Source: Haliclystus octoradiatus
Taxonomy: Eukaryota > Cnidaria > Staurozoa > Stauromedusae > Haliclystidae
Direction: 5' to 3'
Assembly (NCBI GenBank): GCA_916610825.1
Contig: OU744453.1
Location: forward strand, 6,919,845 to 6,983,844
DNA length: 64,000 nucleotides
The position numbers were made by a program, and so were the translations under genes. The notes under the pieces are model-generated. The model was not told the DNA's origin and made no database searches. It saw nothing but the letters and a program-made list of their open reading frames with translations. Shown piece after piece: positions 12,156 to 56,940 of the stretch (position 1 is its first letter; each line of letters opens with the position of its first letter).

Positions 12156-12675
12156 ATATATCATTGGATGTCAAACTACTTAGTAATGCAACTGATACTC
12201 ATGAGGTACATATATGGCTATTTTATTTACATATCTGTGTTAAGACTAAACTTGGCTATGTGCCCTAATTAGAATTAGGCTTGATGACTATATAAAAGAC
12301 AAAGATGAGGATTGAGAAAGTTGAGATTCACCAAATCAACAATAAAGTTGTATAGACTTGTATGTATTATAGGAGCGCAATAAACTCTCTAAAACAAACA
12401 ATTTAGCAATCGAACTGTAATATCCCTTTTATATTATCATTATAAAGTCAAAGGGATTGGGACAAATATTTTGACAATTACTGGAGGATAACATTGGCAC
12501 AACATCGGCTTGTTGCTCAGGAAATGAGAAGTTCACACCAAAAATAATTTAAGATAAATCTGTGAGTGGTTTTGTTAAGATCCTTTATGATCTAGATGTG
12601 TTGCAATGTTAATGCATCAGTCAACTGACATCTGCACGGCCCACCAACTCTGAGAGAAGCCCAGGGGAGTTAACA

Positions 12676-12935
12676 ATTGGAATCTGTTAAGCCCTGGCAA
12701 AATGAATCCAACATTTTGCTTGCTTTTTCGCAACAACGATGTTGTGAAAATGTTGGCTTCATTTGTCCACCCAAGCCAACAAATTTTGACAAACTTCGGT
12801 GTTGGATTTTGTTGGCTGGCACTTTGAAGAAGATCCAAACATTTTCCAACATTCTATTGTTCTTCTCGATGTTGTGAAAATGCTGGCTTCATTTGGCAAC
12901 CCCAGCCAGCATTTTCACAATATTTTCACGTCTCT
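12676..12935. repeat. Hairpin-rich repeat cluster, first array
   Basis: Repeated copies of GTTGTGAAAATGCTGG and of its reverse complement, linked by GCTTCATTTGG, form short hairpins, for example 12868-12930. A second array lies at 13357-13545, with about 420 bp of ordinary sequence between. The arrangement resembles a foldback or MITE element whose ends are built of short inverted units. Mirror copy at 56170-56430. Confidence 0.6.
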
Positions 12936-13356
12936 ACTGTTGGTCGATGATTAAGTAAAGTTTTTTGATTGTCGCGTAATGACAACTGCAGTTTGGCGCG
13001 AAAGTCTTGATGAAAACTGTTGATTTGTTTCATAGAGTCGAGAAATTCAAATGATAAAGTATGTTATTTTATTTAGCAGGCTTTGCTGTTTATTCTAAAT
13101 TTTCAAGTGATTTTAATATCTCTGCGATGGTGGACGACATTCATAATCTTCATAGTGACAAAGAAAGTACGTACGATTGAACAGAGACCGATTATTAAAA
13201 TATATTATGGTTTAATTTGAAAATGCTCGCGAAGTAGAGCAAAGAAGGACAACCAAAATGAAAGATATTATTGAAAGAGAATAATTTCAATAAATCTAAA
13301 TCTAAATCGAGTGACGCAGAAGATGATTTCCCCTTTTAGATTTTCTTTTACGGCTC

Positions 13357-13545
13357 CGGATGTTGTGAAAATACTAGCTTCATTTGGCCACGCCAGTCAG
13401 CACTTTGCCAGCATTAAGCCAGCACTGATGATTGATGTTGTGAAAATGCTGGTTTGGGTGTCCAAATGAAGCCAGCATTTTCACAACATTGTTGCGAAAC
13501 TTTATCAAATGTTGTGGAAATGTTGGCTTCATTTGGCCGGGGCTT
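13357..13545. repeat. Hairpin-rich repeat cluster, second array
   Basis: Contains the clearest hairpin, 13432-13490, with arms GTTGTGAAAATGCTGG and its complement around TTTGGGTGTCC. Mirror copy at 55556-55745, where a few bases of one unit are lost. Confidence 0.6.
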
Positions 13546-13970
13546 TACAATCGATTAATTTATTTCCCCATATCACGGGAGAGAGTTGCTTGTTAAAACC
13601 CCAGTTCTATGTTCTTGTGATGATAAACATGTATAATATGAAGTTTATACCACACAGGAATATTGAAATAGAGAAATTTGTGATTTCTATAATTTTGATT
13701 TTTGTCAACGCTCATGCTGTCGTTTCATCATATAGAAGTTCAGAACATATGCTAGAGTTTCTACAGTTTATAAATTACTAAATGTAGCTAATCAGGGCTT
13801 GTTTTGAATGTTCCTCTACTATTTATCAAAGAAAGATGGATAGAATAACTATAAAGGTATTAATAAGTAGTTATGAATAAATCAAATCCATTTCTACTAA
13901 TTTATATCTACGCTTCATGTATACCAATTTATACTTAATAACAATATAAAATTTACTTTATTATAATATT

Positions 13971-14285
13971 ATAATTTATGCAGCTATGCTTCTTTTTATC
14001 TCTAAATGAATATTATCTTTACCGAATACGCATCTATGAAGCCTCAATCTCAAAACATGTTGAAATTAGAACGACTCTGCAGAATACAGGTGCCATCATT
14101 GGCTGACATGAAAAACTAAACATTTTTAAGAACTTCCATCTGTCAAAAGTTATACATATTATAATTTATGCAGCTATGCTTCTTTTTTATCTCTAAATGA
14201 ATATTTTTTTACCGATCATTCACCTATACTTCAATAACAAAACCTATTGAAATTAGAACGAATCTGCAGAATACGGGTTTATGAC
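13971..14285. repeat. Tandem duplication, 190-bp period, 1.7 units
   Basis: ATAATTTATGCAGCTATGCT begins at 13971 and again at 14161. Both units continue through similar TCTCTAAATGAATAT and GAAATTAGAACGA(C/A)TCTGCAGAATAC blocks. The second unit runs into the 3' end of the ORF at 14224-14760, so that C terminus is repeat-derived. The mirror copy lies near 54840-55140. Confidence 0.75.
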
Positions 14286-14760
14286 AATGCATTGCAGTCT
14301 TCATGTGCACTGGAGCTGGAAGTCCAGTAGGTTCATCACCAGTGACTTCAGTGGCCAGAGAGTCCATCTGTTGAACAATCATATTATTCGATGATTTTTC
14401 AACAATATCATCGTTAACACATTGACGTTTTCGTGGCGCTTGATCATTAGCATTATTTGTCTCAGTATCACTGAGAACATCATTGTCATTGAATAAATCA
14501 TGTGCATCTTTCAATGTTTTAACAACAGGTGCCATTGAATTCATGACATTGATCAAAAGATCGAGTTTCTGTTCCACACAATCTGTACGTGATGGTTGAA
14601 CCTCACTTGTATTTTTACTCAAAACTGCGTCTCCAGTATTGTTTTGACCATTATTGCTAGCCTCGCTACACAAAGCTTGGTCAAATGTAATAGATGTTTC
14701 TCCTTGATCTACAGTTGTTATTAAAGTTTCAACCATAACATTTGATGAAGGTTTTGCCAT
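14224..14760 (-). CDS. Retroelement gag-like or hypothetical protein, short ORF
   Basis: The frame is open from 14799; I choose the second ATG (MAKPSSN) at 14760, giving about 178 residues. It is acidic and Asn/Asp/Ser-rich, with a basic APRKRQC patch and the segment NDDIVEKSSNN. It loosely recalls the N-terminal gag-like proteins of DIRS or other metazoan mobile elements, but I see no zinc knuckle or catalytic domain. The last 20-25 residues (FCRFVLISIGF) overlap the 190-bp repeat and are probably not ancestral. In the right arm it occurs twice because of the tandem duplication. One copy is cut at the duplication junction (52101-52412), and the other has a one-base insertion near 54421. Confidence 0.35.
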   Translation of the reverse strand: MAKPSSNVMVETLITTVDQGETSITFDQALCSEASNNGQNNTGDAVLSKNTSEVQPSRTDCVEQKLDLLINVMNSMAPVVKTLKDAHDLFNDNDVLSDTETNNANDQAPRKRQCVNDDIVEKSSNNMIVQQMDSLATEVTGDEPTGLPAPVHMKTAMHCHKPVFCRFVLISIGFVIEV

Positions 14761-15175
14761 GATCCAAATACAGAAGATGAAAACTTTGTTATTAAACACG
14801 GCATAAACTCAAAATTAATTATAAAAACGATAAATACATATTAAAATAATACTAACGTTTGCAAAAGATGTTGATAAACCTAATGAATATCCTAGGATGG
14901 TCAACATTTACAACGATAAATTCAATAAATATAATGAGACATCTGAAAGCACGTGTTAAAAATTGAATCAACTACTACACATGCGCTACTCTCTCAATAA
15001 TCTCTGCTTCGATGAACTGGGAGAAAGGCTATTGATCGAAATGGATATACAAGCACAACGAAAAGTTATCAAAAATGTTATTGCTACCGCAGTGTCAATC
15101 TATAGATCCATCGCAATTTGGCAACAGCATGGTAGTTTAACAGCTTACTTAAATTGACAACGATGGAGCGTTGAT

Positions 15176-15431
15176 GTAACTAGCCTGCATTACAGGCCGC
15201 GATTCATTCACGAAAGAATAGCGTCTGTGTGAATTGCTCGGTTTCTCTGTTTCTGGGCCTCGTATCAGAATAAGATTAATGTCACATAGTTATGCAAGGT
15301 TAAGGTGATTCTCACCGGGATTCTCACATTACTTTGTTTACTTCAGTTGACATGATTGCTGACAATAAGCGAGTTCGGAGCTTTCACGCGCATGCGCCAT
15401 ATTTGGGGATTGGGCGCTAGAGCAGGATAGA
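15176..15431 (+). repeat. Terminal inverted repeat, left end of ISL2EU-like element
   Basis: Two conserved blocks (15176-15245 and 15365-15431) match in inverted order and orientation the blocks at 22070-22155 and 21910-21976, with unrelated sequence between. Identity is roughly 80% by eye. Right-arm counterparts lie near 51460-51720 and again near 53705-53960 in the tandem copy. Confidence 0.7.
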
Positions 15432-18028
15432 ATTCCCAAAAACATATATTTTCCAAAAGGTTTTGTCTGCGAATCGTACTATTCTATCGTGTTATTTACC
15501 ATCGTTTACCTGTCTATATGCAATTCATCTTTAGTTTGTTTCTTGATTATTTAATTGCAAGGTAAGAAATCTATTTCTGATAAACATTTTTATTCTTCCA
15601 TTCGTTTATTCAACTGTCCATTATCCGGTTCACTGACAATATACAGAGATCTGAGACGTTATTGATGTGTAATACAGTGATCCGATCCTCTAGCGCCTCT
15701 TCAAGAATTGAAAAGAGAGGCCATTCAAATTTATTGACGAAGCCAGAACATCAGCGCATCTAGCAATGGCAATAATGTCACAAGGTCCATTCATTTCAAA
15801 CTGTTTGTGTTTGACTCTAATTAATTCTCATTCTATCGTCAAAGGTAGGTGCTAGCTAGCTAGATATTTTATGTATGCAATACAATTTTGCAATGACTGC
15901 ACAGCCAATAACTTGATCATTCTATAGGCATAAATAAATAGTAGCCTAGGCCTTTTAGGTTAGGCATAAATCCATAAAAATATTTCTCCAAAGTTTGAGA
16001 ACTCAGTTGCTCAGGTTCTCAGAATCTTCGGAGCAGTCTAATCAAGTCCTTTATAGCACCATCTTGAAAAGATTCTATATTTATCACTGAACTTAACGTC
16101 GTTTCAACTCATTTATTTGTTCATACGAGAAAAACATTTTGTCAATATTACATATAAACATAAAATTTCTTCCTAGGCCTAAGCTTGAATATAATCCTTC
16201 AAAGCCTGCTAGCTATACCCAACCCACCCCTTGCACATATTTTTAAGTTGGTAAATACCTTAGAATGATCTAAGCTTTATACAATGGTTTACCTGCATGA
16301 ACAGAGGCTCTGTCGACTCTAAAGCCTCTCTATATGCCATGATGCAATTGTCTACAAAGTCTTGATGAATAACAACAATGGAAGCATATATATATATGGA
16401 TGTGGACTATATAATATTGTTGGGTGTAGGCCTTATATATATTGGCTAGATACTCGTCAGTCTGTAAATGACAACCAATCAAAGTAATAATAATAAAGTG
16501 ACTTTTAAGCGACTAAAGTAGAGCGACTAAGTAATAATAATAATATAATAAGAATAGGAATAATAAGAACACTAATATTTAGACAGGATGGACAGTGTGA
16601 AAACATTGTTATCATATCAACATGTCCCTGTATAAAATTAAAATTAAATAGAATGAAAAAGATATCTAAATTAAATTAAGTTAAATGAACTGAAGCAAAT
16701 AAAGCAAAATTTATGAAACACTGAGTCATCTTAACATAAATAAAAGCTGTATCTGTTCTAAGGATCCTTGAAATATTCAAAATTGTTGTTACCCAGTAAT
16801 TTATATTTATGAAGATGTTTTCCTTATTTCAAGGGCTAGTTTGTTGTAACTTTTTCTACCCACATAGTAAAATAATTCCTTCTGTATTTTGGTTTCAATC
16901 TTGGTATCTTCGACTGTTGATGATTTTTTTTATTTCTTGAGAAATATTACTACCATTGGGTATATATGACTAGATAAATCATATTTCAAGTGTATATAAA
17001 AAGAAGATACAAAATTACAAAATAATAACACTGAGCAGCCAAATATGATAGTTGCATACTATTAGGCAGTGCAATACAGAAACACTTATTGGTAATAATT
17101 TCAAGAGAAAATTATCACATCACCCTCAAGAAATATTAGGCCTCTAGCTATGCATCATCATTGTTATTCAGACATTTTCAATTTTACACCAAATGTTTTC
17201 AATTTAAACCACCGTAATCAGGATGTATTTATTGTCCAGAATATACTTTCGGTACAGATTTCAGTTATTCCTGGAAAGAAGCAGTTGTACGAAATGAGGG
17301 TCGAGAACGTCTATTTGAAGAATTTGGCAAAACGAAGGCCTACACACGTGTTGATTACAACATAAGTTGTTCCTTAGTTAATGAACATAAATGTTGAATT
17401 TGGAAACCTTGTTTTCTCTGCAACATTCATTGTTTGCAGTTCCTTAAATTAGATCTTTCTCTGGGGTTAAAACAGAGGTATCCTACCAACACTCTCATTA
17501 TAACCTATAACCTATCATTATAACCTATAATTTGCATGTGATACACTGTAAATTATTATTTGTCTTAATCAACACAGCCAGTCGGCCTCTGAGGCTCTGA
17601 GGCTCTGTATGTTATGCTTGATCTCTGTGATGAATAAGTGGTTTATTTTATGAAAAATCGTTGATTCAAAACTTAGAAACAACTACTTCGTCATTCGTCT
17701 GTCTTGTTGTTGTACTTTATAGAATGTGTTGAATCTGCATGTCATTGAACACCAATCATAATAAGAAGGCATAATTATTTTATTTAGTTCATTCAATAGC
17801 CAATGCCAAATGCAAATGCTTTATGAGGAGGTATAAACTTTAATTTAAGAAATATGACAATTTAAATTCATGTCACCGTTTCTGCATGTTTTCAAATTAC
17901 ACAGGTCAACGTTAAGTTTTGCAAGTCATGATTACCAAATCATACGTTTTATTTCTGGATAGTTTATAGTCCTATGGGCTCCCACAGGTCAAAAGAGTTT
18001 TTGTTATTGTTTAAATTTTCTATTATAG
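15432..18028. other. Interior of ISL2EU-like element upstream of transposase
   Basis: No supported coding exon. There is an ATG at 15764 with a short open stretch running to a GTAGGT donor-like site at about 15844, which could be a leading exon. TAGGCCTA-type motifs occur near 15940-15970. A short ORF at 17150-17365 is kept in both arms but shows no recognisable domain. Confidence 0.4.
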
Positions 18029-19649
18029 ATGAGAATCTGTGCTTTCACTCACTGCTCAAATGGTACATACCAGATGGATAAATGGAAACTTATTATATGT
18101 TCTATTCATTCTGAAAAACATGGCAAATGTGAATGTCCTCGTCCATGGAAACTGTTCGAATTTCCCTTAGTAAAGGTTGATCCAGTCCTCCGGTCAGACT
18201 GCATAAAAGCATTCAATAGAAAAATCCTGTTACAGGCAAGAACTGACACGCTTCCAAGGACGATAGCATCATCAGCATCTGTTAAACCTGCTAATCCACA
18301 GAAGCGTAGACGGCCACCACCAAAAGCCAGGAACTCAATGCAAGCAAGTCTAAAACTTCAACAAACAATCAACCTCAATCTATTGTATCGGTTATGATGG
18401 ATGATATGTCCAGTTCTATATCTTACTGAAAAATTGTCAGACTCTATTTCAGAACCAACATGCAATGAGCCTGAACCTGCTATGATAGTTATTGATAACC
18501 AAGTTACAGATATCATAACTGAAAGTTATACATTGTCTGAACCAACATGCAATGAACCTGAACCTGCTACAATAATTATTGATAATCAAATTACAGATAA
18601 CACAACCGGAATTTATGCATTATCTGACCACAACTATTATTACAAATGTAAGTGCAGAATTGATTGTGACTGTATATTGTGATTGTGGATGCACTGAAAA
18701 AGAATGTATTATGGAAAAGCAGATTAAAGTTATAAAAAATTTGCAATTTAAAACGTTATCTAGTTAAAGACTAGCAGAAAAAGAATGTTGAAACAACAGA
18801 GGATTGCTTGTAAATATCTTAAGTCAGACTCAAAAGTTAAATTTTATACTGGTTTGCCCTCGTTAAAAGTATTTCACAACACCACAGAAGAGAGGACCAA
18901 AGAGAAAGTTGCCTATTGAAGATGAGATGTTTCTGACATTGGTCAAACTGTGACAAGGCATAGCCAATGAGCTGTTAGCTGATATGTCTGGTGTGAGTGT
19001 TGGACTTGTTTCCCAAATATTCAATACATGGAGCAAATGTCTGTCCCAACAATTGAAAACTTTAATATTCTGGCCTTCTATAAGGCTATTCGTCGCTCTC
19101 TTCCACAACCACTAGCAGGATATCCGAAGCTCACATTTACTTTTGACGGTAGTGAAGTTTTCATACATCGGCCACGAGATTTGGAATTATAATCTCAAAC
19201 TTAATCTGATTATAAAAAGAATAATACGATCAAATTTTTAGTTGGCATTGCATCAAATGCCATGATATGCTTTCTTTCTCAAACATCGGGAGGTAGAGCC
19301 TCTAATAGACACATAACTCTAGACTCAGGACCCCTTGATTATGTAGAAAAAGGAGATCTTATCTTAGGAGATAGAGGGTTTAATATTAGGGAAGATTTAA
19401 TCATTAGGGGGGCAACCCTTGAAATACCCTCCCAGCTAGCTCTGGGCAGGAGCAAATGATAACACAAAACGTCTGGGCAACAAAAAAATAGCAAATGCGA
19501 AGATCCACGTTGAAAGGGCAATTGGTAGAATAAAACATTATTTAATTCTGAAAACTGTCCTTCCCCTTACGTTAGTAGCAAACATAGACGATATTTTAAT
19601 AGTTTCTTGCTGCCTTTGTAATTTATTGCTACCACTTGCACTTTCATGA
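18029..19649 (+). pseudogene. ISL2EU/PIF-type transposase with THAP-like N terminus, inactivated
   Basis: 18029-18397 opens with a THAP-like zinc-binding domain: C-x4-C near the N terminus, then a WK...C..H...C.C block and the LFEFP motif, followed by a basic linker. A stop ends this frame. 18401-18682 has two 90-bp repeats encoding SEPTCNEPEPA and then a Cys-rich KCKCRIDCDC segment. From about 18863 the helix-turn-helix-like and DDE_Tnp_4 domains follow: Asp in TFDGSEVFIHRP, Asp in GDLILGDRGFNI, and Glu in KIHVERAIGRIKHY. It ends at TGA 19647-19649. Several in-frame stops and frame changes make it a pseudogene. Mirror copy at 47408-48890. Confidence 0.82.
18441..18620 (+). repeat. Two-unit 90-bp coding minisatellite in the transposase linker
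   Basis: GAACCAACATGCAATGA(G/A)CCTGAACCTGCTA recurs with a 90-bp period, encoding SEPTCNEPEPA-x-I-x-IDNQ. In the right arm 138 bp covering much of the second unit and the following segment are missing, so this is one of the indels between arms. Confidence 0.75.
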
Positions 19650-19679
19650 ATCATTACAAATTTTGTAATTTTGGGTTCA

Positions 19680-20660
19680 TCAAACCAGCACAAGCACAGA
19701 CTGCAACATGCATTAAGCATTTCTTCGTTGGTATTGGTAATTACTTTATTACTATTAAGCAATTCTGGTATAATATAATGTAGGAAAAATTATTCTGCTG
19801 AATCTGATAAGCTAGTCAAACTGTTGCCATTATAATCAATTCTTTCCAAATAATATCCATGCTTTGAGTAAAAAAAAAAGTCACACCATTTGATTCCAGT
19901 GACTCCCATTTGGAATTGGACCTGGCTATAGTAAGGATTCAATTTCTTTAGGTGAAATGGACACCATTGTCTGTGACTTTTGAATAATCTAGTTCTGCTT
20001 CTAGTGCGTGCAAATTTGAACTTCTATATGGGCATTTAATTTCAAGTAAACCATGACCACAGCAACAACAAGTAACAGTTCAATCTGGGCTAGCACCAAT
20101 AAATGGTCGTTTTTGGCAAACGACAAGTCCACAAGACTCAACAAATAAGTGTTTGTGTTTTTCTTCATCTCTTTTTCATAAACCGATCTTGCTTCATCCT
20201 CCATCTGCTGTCCATACAGGAGGGGGACAATGATGTTTATGTATGTACGCGGCGTTGAACAGATAGCTGAAAACCATGAAGTTACAGACCCATTTGGATC
20301 TTACTTAGATCTCTACTTGGTGTTTCTACTTTTGTCATCACTGTGCGGGATATCGAAGATGTTATCCTGCCAATTCTCTGATTTTTGCAGCTATGGTTCT
20401 CATTTTGGTCACGAGTACCATATTCGATGGCTTTAACATCATTGTTTGTAAAGCATTGTAGCCTCCCGCGTAAACCTATAGCTATGCCTTCTGTTTTAGC
20501 AATTTCTATTATACTTTGGGGAAGTCCAGGAAGAGCATCTACGGTTACCTCAACATTGAGATCATGCTCTACAGGTATGACATCAGCAATAGGCCTTTCA
20601 ATATCAGCACATTTAAATGCCCAAAATGAAGTAGCACTACAGTACAAGGATGACATTATA
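19680..20660 (-). pseudogene. YqaJ-type exonuclease of the ISL2EU-like element, inactivated
   Basis: Read on the minus strand across shifting frames: an N-terminal NQRIGRITSSIS segment (20330-20380), then EDEARSVYEKEMKK, then FIGASPD followed by a stop where Gly is expected (about 20084-20110), then LLEIKCPY. GASPDG and EIKCP are nuclease core motifs of the YqaJ/lambda-exonuclease-like family. The premature stop after GASPD is present in both palindrome arms, so inactivation predates their separation. Upstream 20697-21014 may be further coding remnant (a run ending KVNHTKQTHMLDDY) but is not recognised. The gene converges with the transposase. Confidence 0.7.
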
Positions 20661-21014
20661 CCAACTATAGAGTAGGAGGGACCTCTGTCGTATTGCTTAT
20701 CTTTGATTGAAATAGTCGTCGAGCATGTGGGTTTGTTTGGTGTGATTTACCTTTCTTCTTGTAATGTAGCTTTTTAATTGACATGTCACATACTTTTTGG
20801 AATTTGGTTGGTTGTCTTGATGAACCATATCTATTCCATTGGCATTCCTTATTAGTACTGGACTTTTTTCACATCTAACCATTAATCCAAGCATGCTCAA
20901 CTTTGAATAATATTGCCTCAACATGGTTACATGTGGAACCAAGCCTGTGATATAATAAAAATAAAATAATAATAATGAATAATAGTCTGCATAAAGAAAT
21001 AAAAATTGGCACAT

Positions 21015-21909
21015 CTTTTTTATTTAAATGACTAAGCTACAACCGCATGCTAGCCTTCAACTTTTTCAATTTTATCCCTATCCTAAATTTCACATTCATG
21101 TTTATATATTTATATTTAATTATGTATTAAGATTTTAATTTATCAACACAGAGATCCATTGAATACCACACGTGTGGGTTGGCCTTCCATTAAAATAATA
21201 AATTTAATTAAATAAAATGTATACTCACCCAGTAAAACAAGTATAATAAGCAGAGGCAACATGTCCACTCTTTTATTCAATGCATACCCACATCTCGTGA
21301 GGGTCGTTGTTTATTCGCTATGATGGTGTTGACATCGATTTGAAGAAGCAATTTGAGTGATTAGGAGATATCTCATGATATAAAACATCTTTTAACCATT
21401 GGCAATCAAAATAACTGTATAGGCTTTCCCTTCCCTATAATCGGAAAGAAGTCTTTTACTCAACTCAACCGATTGCTCTGCGCTCAACAAAAACTTCGAT
21501 AATTGAGGAAGAAATACAGGCAGCCATTTTGTAATCCCTTCTTTCTCTTGGATCCAAGTGTCTTCCTTGAGATGTAATGGATCAGGTAATGTAAACTTTG
21601 GAATATTGAGAAGATTTTTATATTCAAACTCTTTAAGTCGACATTATTCGACAGCACTTGGTTTCAATTGTACACCAATTTGAGAAGCGCCAAAAGCAAG
21701 TAATTCTTCCTTGGGCCCTGATTCTTTGAGCCCACGTTTTTTCTGATAATCTTTCAGCTCATTGCATTTCCATAAATTTAGCTCATTAAAATTTAGCGGT
21801 TCCAGAGTACCGGCAGAGTACTCATGATTGGATTGTTTTTAGATAAAATAAGATAACATCGGTAATTTACAAAGCTTTTCGACTAAACGACCGAAGCAAT
21901 TTTGTGTTT
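21015..21909. other. Interior of ISL2EU-like element, no gene seen
   Basis: No domain can be supported on either strand. TATA-rich sequence with scattered short frames lies between the YqaJ remnant and the right inverted repeat. Confidence 0.4.
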
Positions 21910-22155
21910 TTATCCCGCTCTAGTGCTCAATCCCCAAAGATGACGCATGCGAGCGAATAACTCCGAGCTCGCTTATAAATTGATCGAACAGAGGTGATGA
22001 ATATATTCATTAAGAACAATAGATTAACCATGCATCGATCACAAACTTCCGCTCTACGTTTTTGAAAAAATGGCTGGACAGAGAACTGCGCTAATCACAC
22101 AGACCCTATTCTTTTGTAAATAAATCGCGGTCTGTAACGAAGACTATTATGTAAC
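21910..22155 (-). repeat. Terminal inverted repeat, right end of ISL2EU-like element
   Basis: Reverse complement of the blocks at 15176-15245 and 15365-15431, imperfect. Missing in the right arm. Confidence 0.7.
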
Positions 22156-22956
22156 TGGAAATAAAAATATATCACATTCAACATTGATTGACTCTGATCT
22201 GTCACGTTTTGCCATCTGGTGACGAATAGAGATGAATGTGCCATTATAATGAATGTAACATCATATTGAAACATTATAATAATGAATGCGCCAGTATAAA
22301 AGTACAATATAGTCGCTTATTGGAATTTCAATAGCGTCTTCCACAGGACTGATTATTTGGGAAAACTCATTGTATAACATTGTGTAACCGTACAAATTTA
22401 GAAAGCAAGGAATATCATGCCTATTTCATTTGCGCATGTAGATATTAGCAATTGACAATTTCAATGCCAACGTTAAATGTTATACATCATGTAGTTATCT
22501 AATTTTCTACATGTCTGCATTAGGGTGTATTATTGAATTAAGCAATCATTTAATATATCAATCAATCGTCAAAGCGTTTTTCGGTATATTGTAAAATCCA
22601 TGTTAAAATGTGATTAGTCTTTTCAGTCAGTAAGCTATCACGAGTAAGAGTAAATGTATGCAATTCAGCATTATCGAGTAATCTAAGAATCAAAGATAAG
22701 CAGGAGAACCAGGTTGCTATTGTGAACTGTATGCAGGTAGAACGCTTTGTAATAGGGAATACTAATCAACAGAGAATTTGAAACAGTAACTGTATTCCCA
22801 TTAAATCTAGCATACTGTCACATTCATCAGTCCAAATTAGATACTGAATACTGAAACTTGGTCCAGAATCAAAGTCTCTCTTAATTTCTTAATTTTTCTC
22901 ATATCTTAAATTATTAGGTATTTGCTAAATATAAATTATGACCTTTTCATCAACAG

Positions 22957-23369
22957 AGACATCAGCACCTAATAGACCTGTTTGTCATAATGGCATGGGG
23001 GATCGTCCAGGAACCTTTATCTGGAAATTAGAAATTGATGACTATAAAATTAAATTTGTCCATGTGAGTGGTAGCATTGGCTGCGTTTCTATAGGGTACA
23101 GGTGGCCTTTTGGATGCCACTTGAATGGGAAAACAGTTACGCAGCTGTTGTCTTACGCATTGAAAGGTGATGACATCATTCCAACAAGCGATTTCGAAGC
23201 ATATGCTTTTGGTGGAGCAGCAACATACATATGAACAGAGAATTACCATTGTTTCTACAAAGGTAGAGAATATTCAATATGGCACAAAGAAGACTACTAC
23301 AATTGGCTTGATTTTGATAACTATGGCGTTACATGAATGAGAGTATTAGCAACAGCAAAGTCACCATGA
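22957..23369 (+). pseudogene. Family exon B pseudogene
   Basis: Preceded by an intact acceptor (TTTTCATCAACAG) and 413 nt long, the same as the functional exon B copies. It is the most diverged member, with CVSIGYRWPFGCHLNG around the conserved PFGC. Two in-frame TGA codons, at 23232-23234 (in place of Trp) and near 23334 (in place of the last Cys), kill it. The downstream poly(A) hexamer is also altered (AATGAA). No matching exon A was found upstream; that space is filled by the ISL2EU-like element. The copy is absent from the right arm because of the 2952-bp deletion. Confidence 0.88.
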
Positions 23370-27451: not shown

Positions 27452-27929
27452 ACAATTGATCATGCTTCATATGCTATAAACTATTGTGCTAAAAGTTAGC
27501 TATTGGGGTATTTTGATTTTTAAACTTGTTAATACTTTATTGCAATTTTTCTGAGTTTAAATATTTATAATATTGATTTCGTTTCTAACGCATTTTCTAG
27601 GATCATGTTAATTTTATACCAAGCATTCACTGCTATATATAATCACTATGGGGTACTTTGTGCCTGTCATGTATGCTTTGCATAAATAAATTTTCATCTA
27701 TTGGGAAAATCGTTTTTTTCATTTATTATTTTTCATACCATATGAGATTAACACCACTCATCCTTTATAATAGTTTTGCAATATTTACAATACAATATTC
27801 CTGAATAATGGGAGAGGAAAAAAGATAACAGTGCCTGTTGTGCTAGAGACATAAGTGTGATAGCATTTGATTGGGAAATAGGGCCACTTGAAATTCCAAT
27901 AAGTAGTGGGCGTGGTCAAAATTGCTGAT

Positions 27930-41403: not shown

Positions 41404-41439
41404 CACACACGCACACACACACACCAAAGTGTCATCTTG

Positions 41440-42060: not shown

Positions 42061-42546
42061 CTGACAATCAGCAATTTTGACCACACCCACTACTTATTGG
42101 AATTTCAAGTGGCCCTATTTCCCAATCAAATGCTATCACACTTATGTCTCTAGCACAACAGGCACTGTTATCTTTTTTCCTCTCCCATTATTCAGGAAAC
42201 TTAATAATTACTAAATATTGTAAAACTATTATAAAGGATGAGTGGTGTTAATCTCATGTGGTATGAAAAATAATAAATGAAAAAACGATTTTCCCAATAT
42301 ATGAATATTTATTTATGCAAAGCATACATGACAGGCACAAAGTACCCCATAGTGATTATATATAGCAGTGAATGCTTGGTATAAAATTAACATGATCCTA
42401 GAAAATGCGTTAGAAACGAAATCAATTTTATAAATATTTAAACTTAGAAAAATTGCAATAAAGTATTAACAAGTTTAAAAATCAAAATACCCCAATAACT
42501 AACTTTTGGCACAATAGTTTATAACATATGAAGCATGATCAATTGT

Positions 42547-46580: not shown

Positions 46581-46589
46581 ATGGCTACT

Positions 46590-47377
46590 GGGAGGCTACA
46601 ATGCTTTACAAAAAATGATGTTAAAGCCATCGAATCTGGTACTCGTGACCAAAATGAGAACCATAGCTGCAAAAATCAGAGAATTGGCAGGATAACAACT
46701 TCGATATCCCACACAGTGATGACAAAAGTAGAAACACTAAGTAGAGATCTAAGTAGGATCCAAATGGGTCTGTAACTTCATGGTTTTCAGCTATCTGTTC
46801 AACGCCGCCTACATACATAAACATCATTGTCTCCCTCCTGTATGGACAGCAGATGGAGGATGAAGCAAGATCGGTTTATGAAAAAGAGATGAAGAAAAAC
46901 ACAAACACTCATTTGTTGAGTCTTGTGGACTTGTCGTTTGCCAAAAACGACCATTTATTGGTGCTAGCCCAGATTGAACTGTTACTTGTTGTTGCTGTGG
47001 TCATGGTTTACTTGAAATTAAATGCCCATATAGAAGTTCAAATTTGCACGCACTAGAAGCAGAAATAGATTATTCAAAAGTCACAGACAATGGTGTCCAT
47101 TTCACCTAAAGAAAATGAATCCTTACTATAGCCAGGTCCACTTTCAAATGGGAGTCACTGGAATCAAATGGTGTGACTTTTTCGTTTACTCAAAGCATGG
47201 ATATTATTTGGAAAGAATTGATTATGATGGCAACAGTTGGACTAGCTTATCAGATTCAGCAGAATAATTTTTCCTACATTATATTATATCAGAATTGCTT
47301 AATAGTAATAAAGTAATTACCAATACCAACGAAGAAATGCTTAATGCATGTTGCAGTCTGTGCTTGTGCTGGTTTTA
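46590..47377 (+). pseudogene. YqaJ-type exonuclease remnant, right arm, 5'-deleted
   Basis: Mirror of the distal part of 19680-20660. It keeps NQRIGRITTSIS, EDEARSVYEKEM, FIGASPD with the same premature stop, and LLEIKCPY across frames. The 5' end was removed by the deletion at 46581-46589. Confidence 0.68.
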
Positions 47378-47407
47378 TGAACCCAAAATTACAAAATTTG
47401 TAATGAT

Positions 47408-48890
47408 TCATTAAAGTGCAAGTGGTAGCAATAAATTACAAAGGCAGCAAAAAACTATTAAAATATCATCTATGTTTGCTACTAACGTAAGGGGAAGGAC
47501 AGTCTTCAGAATTAAATAATGTTTTATTCTACCAATTGCCCTTTCAACGTGGATCCTCGCATTTGCTATTTTGTTGTTGCCCAGACGTTTTGTGTTATCA
47601 TTTGCTCCTGCCCAGAGCTAGCTGGGAGGGTATTTCAAGGGTTGCCCCCCTAATGATTAAATCTTCCCTAATATTATACCCTCTATCTGCTAAGATAAGA
47701 TCTCCTTTTTCTACATAATCAAGGGGCCCTGAGTCTAGAGTTATGTGTCTATCAGAGGCTCTACCTCCCGATGTTTGAGAAATAAAGCAAATCATTGCAT
47801 TTGGTGCAATGCCAACTAAAAATTTGATCGTATTATTCTTTTTATAATCAGATTAAGTTTGAGATTGTAATTCCAAATCTCGTGGCCGATGTTTGAAAAC
47901 TTCACTACGGTCAAAAGTAAATGTGAGCTTCGGATATCCTGCTAGTGATTGTGGAAGTGAGCGACGAATAGCCTTATAGAAGGCCAGAATATTAAAGTTT
48001 TCAATTTTTGGGACAGACATTTGCTCCATGTATTGAATATTTGGAAAACAAGTCCAACACTCACACCAGACATATCAGCTAACAGCTCATTGGCTATGCC
48101 TTGTCGCAGTTTGACCAATGTCAGAAACATCTCATCTTCAATAGACAACTTTCTCTTTGGTCCTCTCTTCTGTGGTGTTGTGAAATACTATTAACGAAGG
48201 AAAACCAGTATAAAATTTAACTTTTGAGTCTGACTTAAGATATTTACAAGCAATCCTCTGTTGTTTCAATATTCTTTTTCTGCTAGTCTTTTACTAGATA
48301 ACGTTTTAAATTGCAAATTTTTTATAACTTTAATCTGCTTTTCTATAATACATTCTTTCAGGTTCATTGCATGTTGGTTCAGACAATGTATAACTTTCAG
48401 TTATGATATCTGTAACTTGGTTATCAATAATTATCATGGCAGGTTCAGGCTCATTGCATGTTGGTTCTGAAATAGAGTCTGACAATTCTTCAGTAAGATA
48501 TAGAACTGGATATATCATCCATCATAACCGATACAATAGATTGAGGTTGATTGTTTGTTGAAGTTTTAGACTTGCTTGCATTGAGTTCCTGGCTTTTGGT
48601 GGTTGCCGTCTACGCTTCTGTGGTTTAGCAGGTTTAACAGATGCTGATGATACTATCGTCCTTGGAAGGGTGTCAGTTCTTGCCTGTAACAGGATTTTTC
48701 TATTGAATGCTTTTATGAAATCTGACCGGAGGACTGAATCAACCTTTACTAAGGGAAATTCGAACAGTTTCCATGGACGAGGACATTCACATTTGCCATG
48801 TTTTTCAGAATGAATAGAGCATATAATAAGTTTCCATTTATCCATCTGGTATGTACCATTTGAGCAGTGAGTGAAAGCACAGATTCTCAT
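47408..48890 (-). pseudogene. ISL2EU/PIF-type transposase, right arm, inactivated
   Basis: Mirror of 18029-19649. The THAP-like N terminus (48890-48522) is open, and the DDE motifs (GDLILADRGYNI and others) are recognisable. It lacks 138 bp of the linker, including most of the second 90-bp repeat. Frame breaks are shared with the left copy. Two further differences (LGDRGFN versus LADRGYN) show the arms have drifted. Confidence 0.8.
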
Positions 48891-50170
48891 CTATAATAGA
48901 AAATTTAAACAATAACAAAAACTCTTTTGACCTGTGGGAGCCCATAGGACTATAAACTATCCAGAAATAAAACGTATGATTTGGTAATCATGACTTGCAA
49001 AACTTAACGTTGGCCTGTGTAATTTGAAAACATGCAGAAACGCTGACATGAAATTAAATTGTCATATTTCTTAAATTAAAGTTTATACCTCCTCATAAAG
49101 CATCTACATTTGGCATTGGCTATTGAATGAACTAAATAAAATAATTATGCCTTCTTATTATGATTGGTGTTCAATGACATGCAGATTCAACACATTCTAT
49201 AAAGTACAACAAAAGACAGACGAATGACGAAGTAGTTCGTTCTAAGTTTTGAATCAACAATTTTTCATAAAATAAACCACTTATTCATCACAGAGATCAA
49301 GCATAACATACAGAGCCTCAGAGCCTCAGAGGCCGACTGGCTGTGTAGATTAAGACAAATAATAATTTACAGTTTATCACATGCAAATTATAGGTTATAA
49401 TGATAGGTTATAGGTTATAATGAGAGTGTTGGTAGGATACCTCTGTTTTAACCCCAGAGAAAGATCTAATTTAAGGAACTGCAAACAATGAATGTTGTAG
49501 AGAAAACAAGGTTTCTAAATTCAACATTTATGTTCATTAACTCATGATCAACTTATGTTGTAATCAACACGTGTGTAGGCCTGCGTTTTGCCAAATTCTT
49601 CAAATAAACGTTCTCGGCCCTCATTTCGTACAACTGCTTCTTTCCAGGAATAACTGAAATCTGTACCGAAAGTATATTCTGGACAATAAATACATCCTGA
49701 TTACGGTGGCTTAAATTGAAAACATTTGGTGTAAAATTGAAAATGTCTGAATAACAATGATGATGCATAGCTAGAGGCCTAATATTTCTTGAGGTTGATG
49801 TGATAATTTTCTCTTGAAATTATTACTAGTAAGTGTTTCTGTATTGCACTGCCTAATAGTATGCAACTATCATATTTGGCTGCTCAGTGTTATTATTTTT
49901 TTAATTTTGTATCTTCTTTTTATATACGCTTGAAATATGATTTATCTAGTCATATATACCCAATGGTAGTAATATTTCTCAAGAAATAAAAAAAATCATC
50001 AACATTCGAAGATACCAAGATTGAAAACGAAATACAGAAGGAATTATTTTACTATGTGGGTAGAAAAAGTTACAAAAAACTAGCCCTTGAAATAAGGAAA
50101 ACATCTTCATAAATATAAATTACTGGGTAACAACAATTTTGAATATTTCAAGGATCCTTAGAACAGATAC
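48891..50170 (-). other. Interior of ISL2EU-like element, right arm
   Basis: Mirror of the left-arm segment upstream of the transposase. No supported gene; the short frame 49553-49768 mirrors 17150-17365 with two substitutions. Confidence 0.4.
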
Positions 50171-52399
50171 AGCTTTTATTTATGTTAAGATGACTCAGTG
50201 TTTCATAAATTTTGCTTTATTTGCTTCAGTTCATTTAACTTAATTTGATTTGGATATCTTTTTTATTCTATTTAATTTTATACAGGGATATGTTGATATG
50301 ATAACAATGTTTTCACACTGTCCATCATGTCTAAATATATTAGTGTTCTTATTATTCCTATTCTTATTATATTATTATTATTACTTAGTCGCTCTAATTT
50401 AGTCGCTTAAAAGTCACTTTATTATTATTACTTTGATTGGTCGTCATTTACAGACTGACGAGTATCTAGCCAATATATATAAGGCCTACACCCAACAATA
50501 TTATATAGTCCACATCCATATATATATATGCTTCCATTCTTGTTATTCATCAAGACTTTGTATACAATTGCATCATGGCATATAGAGAGGCTTTAGAGTC
50601 GACAGAGCCTCTGTTCATGCAGGTAAACCATTGTATAAAGTTTAGATCAATTTAAGGTATTTACCAACTTAAAAATATGTGCAAGGGGTGGGTTGGGTAT
50701 AGCTAGCAGGCTTTGAAGGATTATATTCAAGCTTAGGCCCAGGAAGAAAGTTTATGTTTATATGTAATATTGACAAAATGTTTTTCTCGTATGAATAAAT
50801 ACATGAGTTGAAACGACGTTAAGTTCAGTGATAAATATAGAATCTTTTCAAAATAGTGCTATAAAGGACTTGATTATACTGCTCCGAAGATTCTGAGAAC
50901 CTGAGCAACTGAGTTCTCAAACTTTGGAGAAATATTTTTATAGGCCTAGGCTACTATTTATTTATGCTTATAGAATGATCAATTTATTGGCTGTGCAGTC
51001 ATTATTGTTTTGCATACATAAAATATCTAGCTACCTAGCACCTACCTTTGACGATAGAATGAGGATTAATTAGAGTCAAACACAAACCGTTTGAAATGAA
51101 TGGACATTGTGACATTATTGCCATTGCTAGATGCGCTGATGTTCTGGCTTCGTCAATAAATTTAAATGGCCTCTCTTTTCAATTCTTGAAGAGGCGCTAG
51201 AGGATCGGATCACTGTATTACACATCAATAACGTCTCAGATCTCTGTATATTGTCAGTGAACCGGGTGATGGACAGTTGAATAAACGAATGGAAGAATAA
51301 AAATGTTTATCAGAAATAGATTTCTTACCTTGCAATTAAATAATCAAGAAACAAACTAAAGATGAATTGCATAGAGACAGTTAAACGATGGTAAATAACA
51401 CGATAGAATAGTACGATTCGCAGACAAAACCTTTTGGAAGATATATGTTTTTTGGAATTCGATCCTGCTCTAGCGCCCAATCCCCAAATATGGTGCATGC
51501 GCGTGAAAGCTCCGAACTGGCTTATTGTCAGCAATCATGTCAACTGAAGTAAACAAAGTAATGTGAGAATCCCGGTGAGAATCACCATAACCTTGCATAA
51601 CTATGTGATATTAGTCTTATTCTGATACGAGGCCCGGAAACAGAGAAACCGAGCAATTCACACAGACGCTATTCTTTCGTGAATGAATCGCGGTCTGTAA
51701 TGCAGGCTAGTTACATCAACGCTCCATCGTTGTCAATTTAAGTAAGCTGTTAAACTACCATACTGTTGCCAAATTGCGATGGATCTATAGATTGACACTG
51801 CGTTGTGCTTGTATATCCACTTCGATCAATAGCCGTTCTCCCAGTTCATCGCAGCAGAGATTATTGAGAGAGTAGCGCAGGTGTAGTAGTTGATTCAATT
51901 TTTAACACGTGCTTTCAGATGTCTGATTATATTTATTGAATTTATCGTTGTAAATGTTGACCATCCTAGGATATTCATTAGGTTTATCAACATCTTTTGC
52001 AAACGTTAGTATTATTTAAATATGTATTTATCGTTTTTATAATTAATTTTGAGTTTATGCCGTGTTTAATAACAAAGTTTTCATCTTCTGTATTTGGATC
52101 ATGGCAAAACCTTCATCAAATGTTATGGACAAAACTTTACTAACAACTGTAGATCAAGGAGAAACATCTATTACATTTGACCAAGCTTTGTGTAGCGAGG
52201 CTAGCAATAATGGTCAAAACAATACTGGAGACGCAGTTTTGAGTAAAAATACAAGTGATGTTCAACCATCACGTACAGATTGTGTGGAACAGAAACTCGA
52301 TCTTTTGATCAATGTCATGAATTCAATGGCACCTGTTGTTAAAACATTGAAAGTTGCACATGATTTATTCAATGACAATGAAGTTCTCAGTGATACTGA
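50171..52399 (-). repeat. 2.24-kb tandem duplication, copy 1
   Basis: The sequence from AGCTTTTATTTATGTTAAGA (50171) to CTCAGTGATACTGA (52399) is repeated at 52411-54643. It spans part of the ISL2EU-like interior, that element's end and the gag-like ORF. The left arm has a single copy. Confidence 0.93.
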
Positions 52400-52412
52400 T
52401 ACAGTGATATAG
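52101..52412 (+). pseudogene. Gag-like ORF cut by the tandem duplication junction
   Basis: Counterpart of 14224-14760. It opens at MAKPSSN and reads to LSDTDT, where the junction at 52400-52410 ends it after about 100 codons. Confidence 0.4.
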
Positions 52413-54643
52413 CTTTTATTTATGTTAAGATGACTCAGTGTTTCATAAATTTTGCTTTATTTGCTTCAGTTCATTTAACTTAATTTAATTTAGATATCTT
52501 TTTCATTCTATTTAATTTTAATTTTATACAGGGACATGTTGATATGATAACAATGTTTTCACACTGTCCATACTGTCTAAATATTAGTGTTCTTATTATT
52601 CCTATTCTTATTATATTATTATTATTACTTAGTCGCTCTACTTTAGTCGCTTAAAATTCCCTTTATTATTATTACTTTGATTGGTTGTCATTTACAGACT
52701 GACGAGTATCTAGCCAATATATATAAGGCCTACACCCAACAATATTATATAGTCCACATCCATATATATATATGCTTCCATTCTTGTTATTCATCAAGAC
52801 TTTATATACAATTGCATCATGGCATATAGAGAGGCTTTAGAGTCGACAGAGCCTCTGTTCATGCAGGTAAACCATTGTATAAAGTTTAGATCAATTTAAG
52901 GTATTTACCAACTTAAAAATATGTGCAAGGGGTGGGTTGGGTATAGCTAGCAGGCTTTGAAGGATTATATTCAAGCTTAGGCCCAGGAAGAAAGTTTATG
53001 TTTATATGTAATATTGACAAAATGTTTTTCTCGTATGAACAAATACATGAGTTGAAACGACGTTAAGTTCAGTGATAAATATAGAATCTTTTCAAAATAG
53101 TGCTATAAAGGACTTGATTATACTGCTCCGAAGATTCTGAGAACCTGAGCAACTGAGTTCTCAAACTTTGGAGAAATATTTTTATAGGCCTAGGCTACTA
53201 TTTATTTATGCTTATAGAATGATCAAGTTATTGGCTGTGCAGTCATTATTGTTTTGCATACATAAAATATCTAGCTACCTAGCACCTACCTTTGACGATA
53301 GAATGAGGATTAATTAGAGTCAAACACAAACCGTTTGAAATGAATGGACATTGTGACATTATTGCCATTGCTAGATGCGCTGATGTTCTGGCTTCGTCAA
53401 TAAATTTAAATGGCCTCTCTTTTCAATTCTTGAAGAGGCGCTAGAGGATCGGATCACTGTATTACACATCAATAACGTCTCAGATCTCTGTATATTGTCA
53501 GTGAACCGGGTGATGGACAGTTGAATAAACGAATGGAAGAATAAAAATGTTTATCAGAAATAGATTTCTTACCTTGCAATTAAATAATCAAGAAACAAAC
53601 TAAAGATGAATTGCATAGAGACAGTTAAACGATGGTAAATAAAACGATAGAATAGTACGATTCGCAGACAAAACCTTTTGGAAAATATATGTTTTTTGGA
53701 ATTCGATCCTGCTCTAGCGCCCAATCCCCAAATATGGTGCATGCGCGTGAAAGCTCCGAACTCGCTTATTGTCAGCAATCATGTCAACTGAAGTAAACAA
53801 AGTAATGTGAGAATCCCGGTGAGAATCACCATAACCTTGCATAACTATGTGATATTAATCTTATTCTGATACGAGGCCCGGAAACAGAGAAACCGAGCAA
53901 TTCACACAGACGCTATTCTTTCGTGAATGAATCGCGGTCTGTAATGCAGGCTAGTTACATCAACGCTCCATCGTTGTCAATTTAAGTAAGCTGTTAAACT
54001 ACCATACTGTTGCCAAATTGCGATGGATCTATAGATTGACACTGCGTTGTGCTTGTATATCCACTTCGATCAATAGCCGTTCTCCCAGTTCATCGCAGCA
54101 GAGATTATTGAGAGAGTAGCGCATGTGTAGTAGTTGATTCAATTTTTAACACGTGCTTTCAGATGTCTGATTATATTTATTGAATTTATCGTTGTAAATG
54201 TTGACCATCCTAGGATATTCATTAGGTTTATCAACATCTTTTGCAAACGTTAGTATTATTTAAATATGTATTTATCGTTTTTATAATTATTTTTGAGTTT
54301 CTGCCGTGTTTAACAACAAAGTTTTCATCTTCTGTATTTGGATCATGGCAAAACCTTCATCAAATGTTATGGACGAAACTTTAATTACAACTGTAGATCA
54401 AGGAGAAACATCTATTACATTTTGACCAAGCTTTGTGTAGCGAGGCTAGCAATAATGGTCAAAACAATACTGGAGACGCAGTTTTGTGTAAAAATACAAG
54501 TGATGTTCAACCATCACGTACAGATTGTGTGGAACAGAAACTCGATCTTTTGATCAATGTCATGAATTCAATGGCACCTGTTGTTAAAACATTGAAAGAT
54601 GCACATGATTTATTCAATGACAATGATGTTCTCAGTGATACTG
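52411..54643 (-). repeat. 2.24-kb tandem duplication, copy 2
   Basis: Direct copy of 50171-52399 with a few substitutions and small indels, for example an eight-base difference near 52515. An 11-bp junction (52400-52410, TACAGTGATAT) separates the copies. Confidence 0.93.
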
Positions 54644-54882
54644 AGACAAATAATGCTAATGATCAAGCGCCACGAAAACGTCAATGTGTTAACGATGATA
54701 TTGTTGAAAAATCATCGAATAATATGATTGTTCAACAGATGGACTCTCTGGCCACTGAAGTCACTGGTGATGAACCTACTGGACCTCCAGCTCCAGTGCA
54801 CATGAAGACTGCAATGCATTGTCATAAACCCGTATTCTGCAGATTCGTTCTAATTTCAATAGGTTTTGTTATTGAAGTATAG
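54345..54882 (+). pseudogene. Gag-like ORF, right arm, frameshifted
   Basis: Counterpart of 14224-14760. An extra T near 54421 breaks the frame; the remainder (54433-54882) is open and matches the left copy almost residue for residue. Confidence 0.4.
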
Positions 54883-55555
54883 GTGAATGATCGATAAAAA
54901 AATATTCATTTAGAGATAAAAAAGAAGCATAGCTGCATAAATTATAATATGTATAACTTTTGACAGATGGAAGTTCTTAAAAATGTTTAGTTTTTCATGT
55001 CAGCCAATGATGGCACCTGTATTCTGCAGAGTCGTTCTAATTTCAACATGTTTTGAGATTGAGGCTTCATAGATGCGTAGTCGGTAAAGATAATATTCAT
55101 TTAGAGATAAAAAGAAGCATAGCTGCATAAATTATAATATTATAATAAAGTAAATATTATATTGTTATTAAGTATAAATTGGTATACATGCAAGCGTAGA
55201 TATAAATTAGTAGAAATGGATTTGATTTATTCATAACTACTTATTAATACCTTTATAGTTATTCTATCCATCTTTCTTTGATAAATAGAAGAGAAACATT
55301 CAAAACAAGCCCTGATTAGCTACATTTAGTAATTTATAAACTGTAGAAATTCTAGCATATGTTCTGAACTTCTATATGATGAAACGACAGCATGAGCGTT
55401 GACAAAAATCAAAATTATAGAAATCACAAATTTCTCTATTTCAATATTCCTGTGTGGTATAAACTTCATATTATATATGTTTATCATCACAAGAACATAG
55501 AACTGGGGTTTTAACAAGCAGCTCTCTCCCGTGATACGGGGAAATAAATTAATCG

Positions 55556-55745
55556 ATTGTAAAGCCCCGGCCAAATGAAGCCAACATTTCCACAACATTT
55601 GATAAAGTTTCGCAACAATGTTGTGAAAATGCTGGCTTCATTTGGACACCCAAGCCAGCATTTTCACAACATCAATCACCAGTGCTGGCTTAATGCTGGC
55701 AAAGTGCTGACTGGCATGGCCAAATGAAGCCAGTATTTTCACAAA
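55556..55745. repeat. Hairpin-rich repeat array, right arm
   Basis: Mirror of 13357-13545. The hairpin around 55618-55672 is intact. Confidence 0.6.
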
Positions 55746-56169
55746 TCCGGAGCCGTAAAAGAAAATCTAAAAGGGGAAATCATCTTCTGCGTCACTCGAT
55801 TTAGATTTAGATTTATTGAAATTATTCTCTTTCAATAATATCTTTCATTTTGGTTGTCCTTCTTTGCTCTACTTCGCGAGCATTTTCAAATTAAACCATA
55901 ATATATTTTAATAATCGGTCTCTGTTGAATCGTACGTACTTTCTTTGTCACTATGAAGATTATGAATGTCGTCCACCATCGCAGAGATATTAAAATCACT
56001 TGAAAATTTAGAATAAACAGCAAAGCCTGCTAAATAAAATAACATACTTTATCATTTGAATTTCTCGACTCTATGAAACAAATCAACAGTTTCATATTAA
56101 GACTTTCCCGCCAAACTGCAGTTGTCATTACGAGACAATCTAAAAACTTTACTTAATCATCGACCAATA

Positions 56170-56430
56170 GTAGAGACGTGAAAATATTGTGAAAATGATG
56201 GTTGGGGTTGCCAAATGAAGCCAGCATTTTCACAACATCGAGAAGAACAATAGAATGTTGGAAAATGTTTGGATCATCTTCAAAGTGCCAGCCAACAAAA
56301 TCCAACACCCAAGTTTGTCAAAATTTGTTGGCTTGGGTGGCCAAATGAAGCCAGCATTTTCACAACATCGTTGTTGCGAAAAAGTAAGAAAAATGTTAGA
56401 TTCATTTTTCCTGGGCTTAACAGATTCCAA
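56170..56430. repeat. Hairpin-rich repeat array, right arm, outer
   Basis: Mirror of 12676-12935, more diverged than most of the arm. Confidence 0.6.
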
Positions 56431-56940
56431 TTGTTAACTCCCCTGGGCTTCTCTCGGAGTTGGTGGGCCGTGCAGATGTCAGTTGACTGATGCATTAACA
56501 TTGCAACACATCTAGATCATGAAGGATCTTAACAAAACCACTCACAGATTTATCTTAAATTATTTTTGGTTTGAACTTCTCATTTCCTGAGCAACAAGCC
56601 GATGTTGTGCCAATGTTATCCTCCAATATTTGTCAAAATATTTGTCCCAATCCCTTTGACTTTATAATGATAATATAAAAGGGATATTACAGTTCGATTG
56701 CTAAATTATTTGTTTTAGAGAGTTTATTGCGCTCCTATAATACATACAAGTGTATACAACTTTACTCTATATTATCCAATAGTATTGTTGATTTGGTGAA
56801 TCTCAACTTTCTCAATCCTCATCTTTGTCTTTGCACATAGCCAAGTTTAGTCTTAACACAGATATGTAAATAAAATAGCCATATATGTACCTCATGAGTA
56901 TCAGTTGCATTACTAAGTAGTTTGACATCCAATGATATAT

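Follow-up and report, generated by a model that had tools for sequence, protein, structure and literature searches.

The gene array and its orientation

The region analysed here is a stretch of 64,000 nucleotides (the window) from the staurozoan cnidarian Haliclystus octoradiatus, corresponding to C10:6919845-6983844, where C10 is chromosome 8 of the assembly, and it was examined within a neighbourhood of 263 kb of C10. The window covers part of a tandem array of genes encoding PAN-like and lectin-like proteins, together with a large palindrome (palindrome 1) that is centred on a head-to-head pair of Penelope-like elements and adjoined on its right by a second palindrome (palindrome 2). As assembled, the chromosome runs in the order L, A, P1, A' reversed, B, P2, B' reversed, R, where P1 and P2 are the element pairs at the centres of palindromes 1 and 2, A and A' the left and right arms of palindrome 1, B and B' those of palindrome 2, and L and R the outer flanks; the sequence type to the left of P1 is called a, and that flanking P2 is called b. 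Coordinates without a prefix are window positions. The assembly (262 Mb in 33 scaffolds, with an 18.3-kb mitochondrial genome) was made from one animal by PacBio HiFi sequencing at 68-fold from fragments of 12-20 kb, HiCanu, purge_dups and Hi-C scaffolding (PMC9975415).

The array of two-exon PAN-like/AJLec-like genes extends over window 4268-44570 and C10:6.53-7.02 Mb, and the following of its features bear on orientation.

4276..12154, plus strand: adjacent unit lacking the element pair, with a-type sequence up to 8240 and again at 10079-10139, then b-type sequence from 10609 onward, on the same strand (sequence comparison)
25430..25756, plus strand: PAN-type exon (tblastn)
27035..27445, plus strand: second exon, with a putative lectin-like (AJLec-like) domain (tblastn)
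30213..30557, plus strand: PAN-type exon (tblastn; PAN_1 at E 0.0038, below the cut-off)
39419..39763, minus strand: PAN-type exon in the inverted segment (tblastn)
42553..42963, minus strand: second exon in the inverted segment (tblastn)
44244..44570, minus strand: PAN-type exon in the inverted segment (tblastn)
63219..63461, minus strand: PAN-type exon in B, inverted segment (tblastn)

Apart from the PAN_1 match just given, the other PAN-type exon scanned returned no PAN hit. A profile of nine second-exon sequences (9 of 12 aligned, one with stops and two shorter ones being omitted) gave a match to the sea-anemone lectin AJLec (6a56; E 5.5e-4) made up of two weak, colinear pieces. Judged by eye, the array proteins appear to be secreted, and their function is a prediction from sequence.

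Of the array exon matches in the 263 kb (all 38 clusters found by tblastn), 33/33 outside the P1-P2 interval lie on the plus strand and 5/5 inside it on the minus strand. A random placing of the five minus exons would match this pattern once in 500,000, a figure to be read with the non-independence of the exons in mind. The order of sequence types points in the same direction: a is followed by b on the same strand in four of the five other a-bearing units of the 263 kb (at 6.80, 6.86 and 6.91 Mb and at window 4276-12154), whereas P1 is flanked by a, and P2 by b, to the left and right alike.

Palindrome 1 and the element pair at its centre

The existence of a large palindrome, proposed in a sequence-only reading of the window, was confirmed by self-blastn of the window, which aligned the inverted main blocks 12155-34404 and 56941-35218 at 94.0-98.3% identity, far beyond chance. 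The coordinates first proposed hold, the arms lying at 12155-34404 and 35218-56941 and the spacer exactly at 34405-35217 (813 bp). The same reading had described near-constant coordinate sums and the recurrence of every landmark, and neither description survives comparison: the sums range from 66861 to 70000 over the main blocks, and the arms differ by a left-arm-only segment, a right-arm-only duplication and unequal ATT tracts (~0.9 kb versus ~1.25 kb).

12155..34404, plus strand: left arm A, a unit of the array that carries exons of lectin-like genes and has the left Penelope-like element at its inner end (self-blastn)
35218..56941, minus strand: right arm A', the A unit reversed (self-blastn, divergence profile)
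20468..23419, plus strand: left-arm-only segment with a copy of the second exon of the array (22953-23360, 2 stops), its order being retained in other array units (blast gap, tblastn)
50166..54648, no strand: right-arm-only 2.24-kb tandem duplication, 50166-52403 / 52406-54648 (98.3% direct repeat)
32834..35293, minus strand: reading frame of the left Penelope-like element, reverse transcriptase with a C-terminal GIY-YIG domain (Pfam profiles)
34405..35217, no strand: spacer, the 5' part of the left Penelope-like element, missing from the right copy (full-length copies elsewhere)
35218..36788, plus strand: right Penelope-like element, 5'-truncated, inverted and lacking the first 813 bases (PF00078)
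31729..32625, no strand: ATT-type tract, outer tail of the left element (Tandem Repeats Finder)
36997..38247, no strand: AAT-type tract, outer tail of the right element (Tandem Repeats Finder)
35118..35317, no strand: 200-bp probe over the head-to-head junction (35217|35218), with a second full match at C10:6991471-6991670

The centre of the palindrome is a head-to-head pair of Penelope-like elements. The reverse transcriptase profile PF00078 matched the left element at E 5e-11 and the right one (frame 35040-36785) at E 3.4e-11, above the curated cut-off. In a scan of the C-terminal 171 residues, the GIY-YIG profile PF01541 was matched over positions 2-74 of 78 at E 3.3e-4, its 21.3 bits lying slightly under the curated cut-off of 22.6; a scan of the whole frame did not list the match at E 0.01. 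The first 76 bases of the left frame fall inside the right element.

Searches of the whole genome with the spacer and with the junction probe each yielded 59 candidate places, 40 of which were scored. The spacer occurs in at least 23 full-length copies at 99-100% identity, both palindrome centres counted, and other copies of the element show the unit ending at position 35217. The junction probe matched at full length at two sites only, the two palindrome centres, while the other listed matches (42 matches in all) covered at most one half. This restriction of the full match to the palindrome centres among the places scored suggests that the junction most likely arose once.

The element is young. 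The two halves of P1 show 1 difference in 1760 positions, and P1 and P2 show 8 in 2313 (0.35%), each of them differing by 8-10 from seven other copies. With their tails, P1 measures ~6.5 kb and P2 ~4.9 kb, the two tails of P1 being of one type and the two tails of P2 of another. The possibility that the pair inserted into a pre-existing palindrome was rejected on this account, the tails having been copied with the arms. A target-site duplication of the pair was not shown, both flanks being ATT/ATC-rich by eye.

Pseudo-LTR (long terminal repeat)-like layouts were seen among the seven others that were fetched: in L002, L003, L004 and L008 the 5' end is adjoined by another copy on the same strand, at the one locus of L005 and L006 a short same-strand piece occurs together with a facing copy, and the layout of L007 is ambiguous. 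Many, not all, Penelope-like families carry a hammerhead ribozyme in the pseudo-LTR; no Rfam match appeared at E up to 2 in window 32600-37000, nor at E up to 1 in four of the seven copies.

Further young copies of the element lie on C10:15521858-15575108, three in direct orientation 26 kb apart, and facing pairs occur on C7:1925951-1928311, C27:3087-7647 and C11:6054362-6058524; all of these are candidate sites of additional mirror structures.

Palindrome 2 and the junctions

Palindrome 2 begins where palindrome 1 ends and spans C10:6976783-7007773, mostly beyond the window, with arms at C10:6976783-6990757 and 6991571-7007773 and the same 813-bp centre.

56939..64000, minus strand: left arm B of palindrome 2, running on to C10:6990757, with its partner at C10:6991571-7007773 (blast comparison)
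56939..56941, no strand: novel A'|B join with a 3-bp (ATA) overlap, where a long interspersed nuclear element (LINE) is cut and fused to the outer end of A' (sequence comparison)

P2 lies 36.5 kb from P1. Identity between B and B' is 99.8% across the inner 9.55 kb, falling to 98.2% across the outer 2.7 kb, with zero differences in the 2.2 kb beside the element tail. The right half of P1 matches the left half of P2 over 1759 bp at 99.83%, so that near-identical inverted copies bound the reversed segment.

The join at 56939-56941 was recognized as novel when set against the uncut L|A edge, C10:7007773 and copies of the LINE part. At the left edge, the sequence across 12155 is contiguous in the paralogue C10:6740553-6742872 (98%), and this edge is therefore ancestral. 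At the outer end of B' (C10:7007773) the LINE is uncut and continues into sequence that resembles, by eye, the endonuclease of open reading frame 2 (ORF2). Both old edges are thus preserved, and the join at 56939-56941 is the single new one found. The view that a transposable element has its 3' end at 56939 was rejected, as L033 (the one other copy read) and B' both continue into the endonuclease-like ORF2 by eye.

A probable local inversion between element pairs

The assembly itself shows the element pair and the junction common to P1 and P2, a unit present twice, one new join and a segment in reverse, and undoing one inversion accounts for both palindromes at once. When the P1-P2 segment was flipped in silico (C10:6919845-7015000, matches of at least 1 kb at 90% identity or more, overlapping matches summed), inverted matches dropped from 40.5 to 7.0 kb and direct matches rose from 6.6 to 40.0 kb. 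The four inverted matches left were all between element halves, the unit-to-unit offsets were 36.1-39.2 kb, and the order became L, (A P B reversed), (A' P B' reversed), R, which is a plain direct tandem duplication. The exon strands and the a-then-b order of the array units described above provide support that makes no use of the flip.

The reading that we favour, with a probability of about 65%, is that palindrome 1 is one half of a local inversion in the tandem gene array, where a duplicated unit was inverted by recombination between the element pairs. A Penelope-like retroelement would have inserted into one PAN/lectin-like unit as a head-to-head pair, made of a longer copy and an inverted 5'-truncated copy. 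The unit, of ~37 kb, would then have been duplicated in tandem, with the LINE on its right joined through the 3-bp microhomology to its left end. Finally, the right element of the first pair might have recombined by homology with the left one of the second pair and so inverted the intervening segment, a step made possible because each pair holds the same sequence in both orientations. Such a history would convert 'A-P-B, A-P-B' (B in array orientation) into the two adjoining palindromes A-P-A' and B-P-B'. Either the two units, whether alleles or copies within the array, had already diverged by the time they were brought together, or some of their parts were replaced afterwards. We infer both the agency of recombination and the order of the steps, with duplication first. 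The pair by itself does not reverse an array, since three older pairs of a related element (79-85% identical) at C10:6.804, 6.859 and 6.913 Mb have genes on the plus strand to both sides.

The element pair might further act as a two-way recombination hinge in the lectin-like gene array, every duplication of a hinge-bearing unit allowing the segment between hinges to flip and to exchange with its mirror arm, so that animals would differ in orientation and carry mosaic gene copies; we regard this extension as rather doubtful.

Divergence of the arms and alternative histories

Overall, A and A' differ by 333 substitutions in 16,369 aligned bases (2.0%), summed by hand over zones set between large indels, with one copy of the duplicated 2.24 kb per zone. 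The differences are unevenly spread. Beside P1 (29670-31726) there are 3 in 2056 positions; going outward the counts become 12/1250, then 89/3244 (25170-28419, 2.7%), then 16/1749, and the four outer zones diverge by 1.8-4.1%. As the arms are 2-3% apart away from the centre despite the youth of the element, the outer parts of the A arms had already split when the element inserted. The origin would lie either in the combination of two alleles or array copies that had diverged beforehand, or in the replacement of stretches of the arms through exchange with other versions. The similarity of the inner parts might also be maintained by gene conversion between the arms close to the centre.

This profile bears on the fold-back duplication that the sequence-only reading had offered as the origin of the palindrome, an explanation that finds no support here and that we consider most improbable. 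Taken alone, P1, where a longer element faces one without the 813 bp, does resemble the product of a fold-back of a single arm. The same junction with the same 813-bp offset stands at the centre of palindrome 2, so it is not private to palindrome 1, and the fold-back would need to have occurred twice with an identical junction. A fold-back palindrome is expected to diverge equally along its arms, in contrast to the profile above, although gene conversion close to the centre might also produce such a profile; the arm divergence exceeds what the age of the element permits. Moreover, palindrome 2 starts where palindrome 1 ends on the right, and both palindromes are explained by one inversion.

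A one-step history by template switching deserves somewhat more weight and is still quite unlikely. Here a replication fork would switch at P1, copy A backwards, jump by microhomology into the LINE, copy B backwards and switch back at P2, yielding the same structure with one 3-bp microhomology junction. Strand switching at short inverted repeats has been described in yeast, in the portion of PMC10766183 drawn on here. Such a history requires several switches in one event, and a fresh copy should start identical, yet A and A' differ at the 89 of 3244 positions of 25170-28419, unless the homologous chromosome served as template. Reintegration of an excised circle would end in the same structure as the inversion.

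Several observations weigh against the inversion between element pairs. One of the five other a-bearing units, at 6.83 Mb, has no b after it. P1 is no more similar to P2 than either of them is to the seven further copies compared, and only one derived base (site 675) is common to both and absent from all seven, so that their common origin rests on the shared junction. A tandem duplication on one chromatid without further exchange was rejected as sufficient, the A-A' divergence (2.0% overall, 2.7% at 25170-28419) being six to eight times that between P1 and P2; diverged alleles or later exchange are needed besides. The template-switch history leads to the same end product. Finally, the analysis is of the assembly alone, which its authors describe as 'not fully phased', and the reads as well as the second haplotype, deposited separately (PMC9975415), bear on the orientation.

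The sequence-only reading had also warned of an assembly error. This caution is fair insofar as a middle piece might have been placed in the wrong orientation at the repeats, while a simple false haplotype join would not make the join at 56939-56941. In the latter scenario A would come from one chromosome and A' from the other, linked through the element pair. Arms that are near-identical beside the element and 2-3% apart beyond it are what alleles sharing a young insertion would show, and P1 and P2 differ from each other as much as from other copies. The outer arm is present a third time at C10:6.741 Mb, and this copy (A1) sides over 12155-14450 with A' at 32 of 49 informative sites, against 9 where A equals A' and 8 where A equals A1; at 16555-18065 A1 is closer to A (99.3%) than to A' (97.4%), a mosaic that fits exchange and phase switching alike. 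The outer end of A' should nevertheless run into L in both haplotypes, yet it is joined to the cut LINE, and that join must be real in at least one haplotype, which already implies a rearranged unit. We therefore judge a false haplotype join very unlikely.

The mis-oriented middle piece, in which the true chromosome would be a direct tandem duplication whose P1-P2 piece the assembler placed backwards, is unlikely, although it has more in its favour. The element halves are 99.7-99.9% identical both ways, so both pairs read much the same from either side; the assembly, which is not fully phased, received manual corrections of 260 missing joins or mis-joins (PMC9975415); and the surrounding array consists of repeats and includes, 75 kb away, a gap and contig ends that overlap. 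On the other side, P1 and P2 with their tails are shorter than the 12-20 kb HiFi fragments, and their flanks a and b differ. There is no N anywhere in the window, and the sole N run in the 263 kb (500 N at C10:6844326-6844825) lies ~75 kb to its left, so the palindrome was assembled without a scaffold gap.

Relation to known systems

Inversions between inverted copies of transposable elements by non-allelic homologous recombination are a known class. As in that class, the breakpoints here lie in near-identical inverted element copies and the segment between them is reversed; unlike it, the segment flanks here are tandem duplicates, leaving two adjoining large palindromes. The ampliconic palindromes of sex chromosomes likewise have arms of tens of kilobases, a short spacer and their highest arm identity near the centre, whereas in the inversion proposed here the setting is a same-strand tandem array, the arms are 2% diverged, an element pair forms the spacer and evidence of sex linkage is lacking. 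The genome note gives the sex chromosomes of this species as 'Not applicable' (PMC9975415).

For the Penelope-like elements of Adineta vaga, the portion of PMC3846280 drawn on here describes the head-to-head layout as the 'most frequently observed' inverted arrangement and suggests self-priming. The insertions recorded there resemble ours in having an element with reverse transcriptase and GIY-YIG domains, a longer copy of which faces an inverted 5'-truncated one, and direct partial tandems are found elsewhere in the H. octoradiatus genome. They differ, in that same portion, in that here the pair is duplicated and marks where a whole array segment changes direction, with no hammerhead ribozyme match found. 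Origin-dependent inverted-repeat amplification (ODIRA), as far as it is set out in the part of PMC10766183 used, similarly joins inverted copies at short inverted repeats, but here two inverted junctions flank a reversed duplicate instead of an inverted triplication, and the arms are diverged. The inversion treated in PMC12910113 is associated, in the sections consulted, with the elements Rachael and Hecuba, not with Penelope.

Every ingredient of the proposed history is already known, and in the literature searched, where subscription journals are thinly covered, no described palindrome pair of such make was found. An inverted element pair in a tandem repeat, followed by one inversion, would offer a route to two adjoining large palindromes without fold-back, with arms that look far older than the palindrome. 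Its signature can be searched for in other genomes, as a mirror centre made of a retroelement pair, an edge shared with a second palindrome and gene strands reversed only between the pairs, and it points assembly curators to the reads worth inspecting.

Other features of the region

The array also contains a direct ~200-kb duplication, C10:6529817-6747511 versus 6747507-6937909, whose homology stops within the left arm of the window (18065). Its copies abut with a 5-base overlap and no N; they show 3 differences over window 9700-12250 and are ~2% diverged from 12250 onward, and they could represent either a real tandem duplication or two haplotypes left in tandem. The sequences on both sides of the 500-N gap (C10:6835058-6844325 and 6844826-6854092) are contig ends that share 9.27 kb at 99.99% identity, being either an unmerged overlap or an unresolved tandem unit. 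Gene counts in the H. octoradiatus array at C10:6.53-7.02 Mb depend on how such duplications are resolved.

With respect to mobile elements, the element-free unit carries, relative to the arm, an insert of ~1.84 kb at window 8241-10078 between direct repeats AAAATAG. A LINE with reverse transcriptase-like frames (60449-63479) abuts a PAN-type exon, and the frame 62616-63479 starts as this type of exon, by tblastn, and goes on as a LINE endonuclease by eye. Candidate Ty3-like gag-pol frames, broken into pieces by stops, were noted by eye at 425-3899. Finally, a segment of ~1.97 kb with inverted ends AGGGCTCCGCGCCGA (by eye) lies at C10:7003131-7005100 in B' and not in B, and is probably a DNA transposon that arrived after the duplication.

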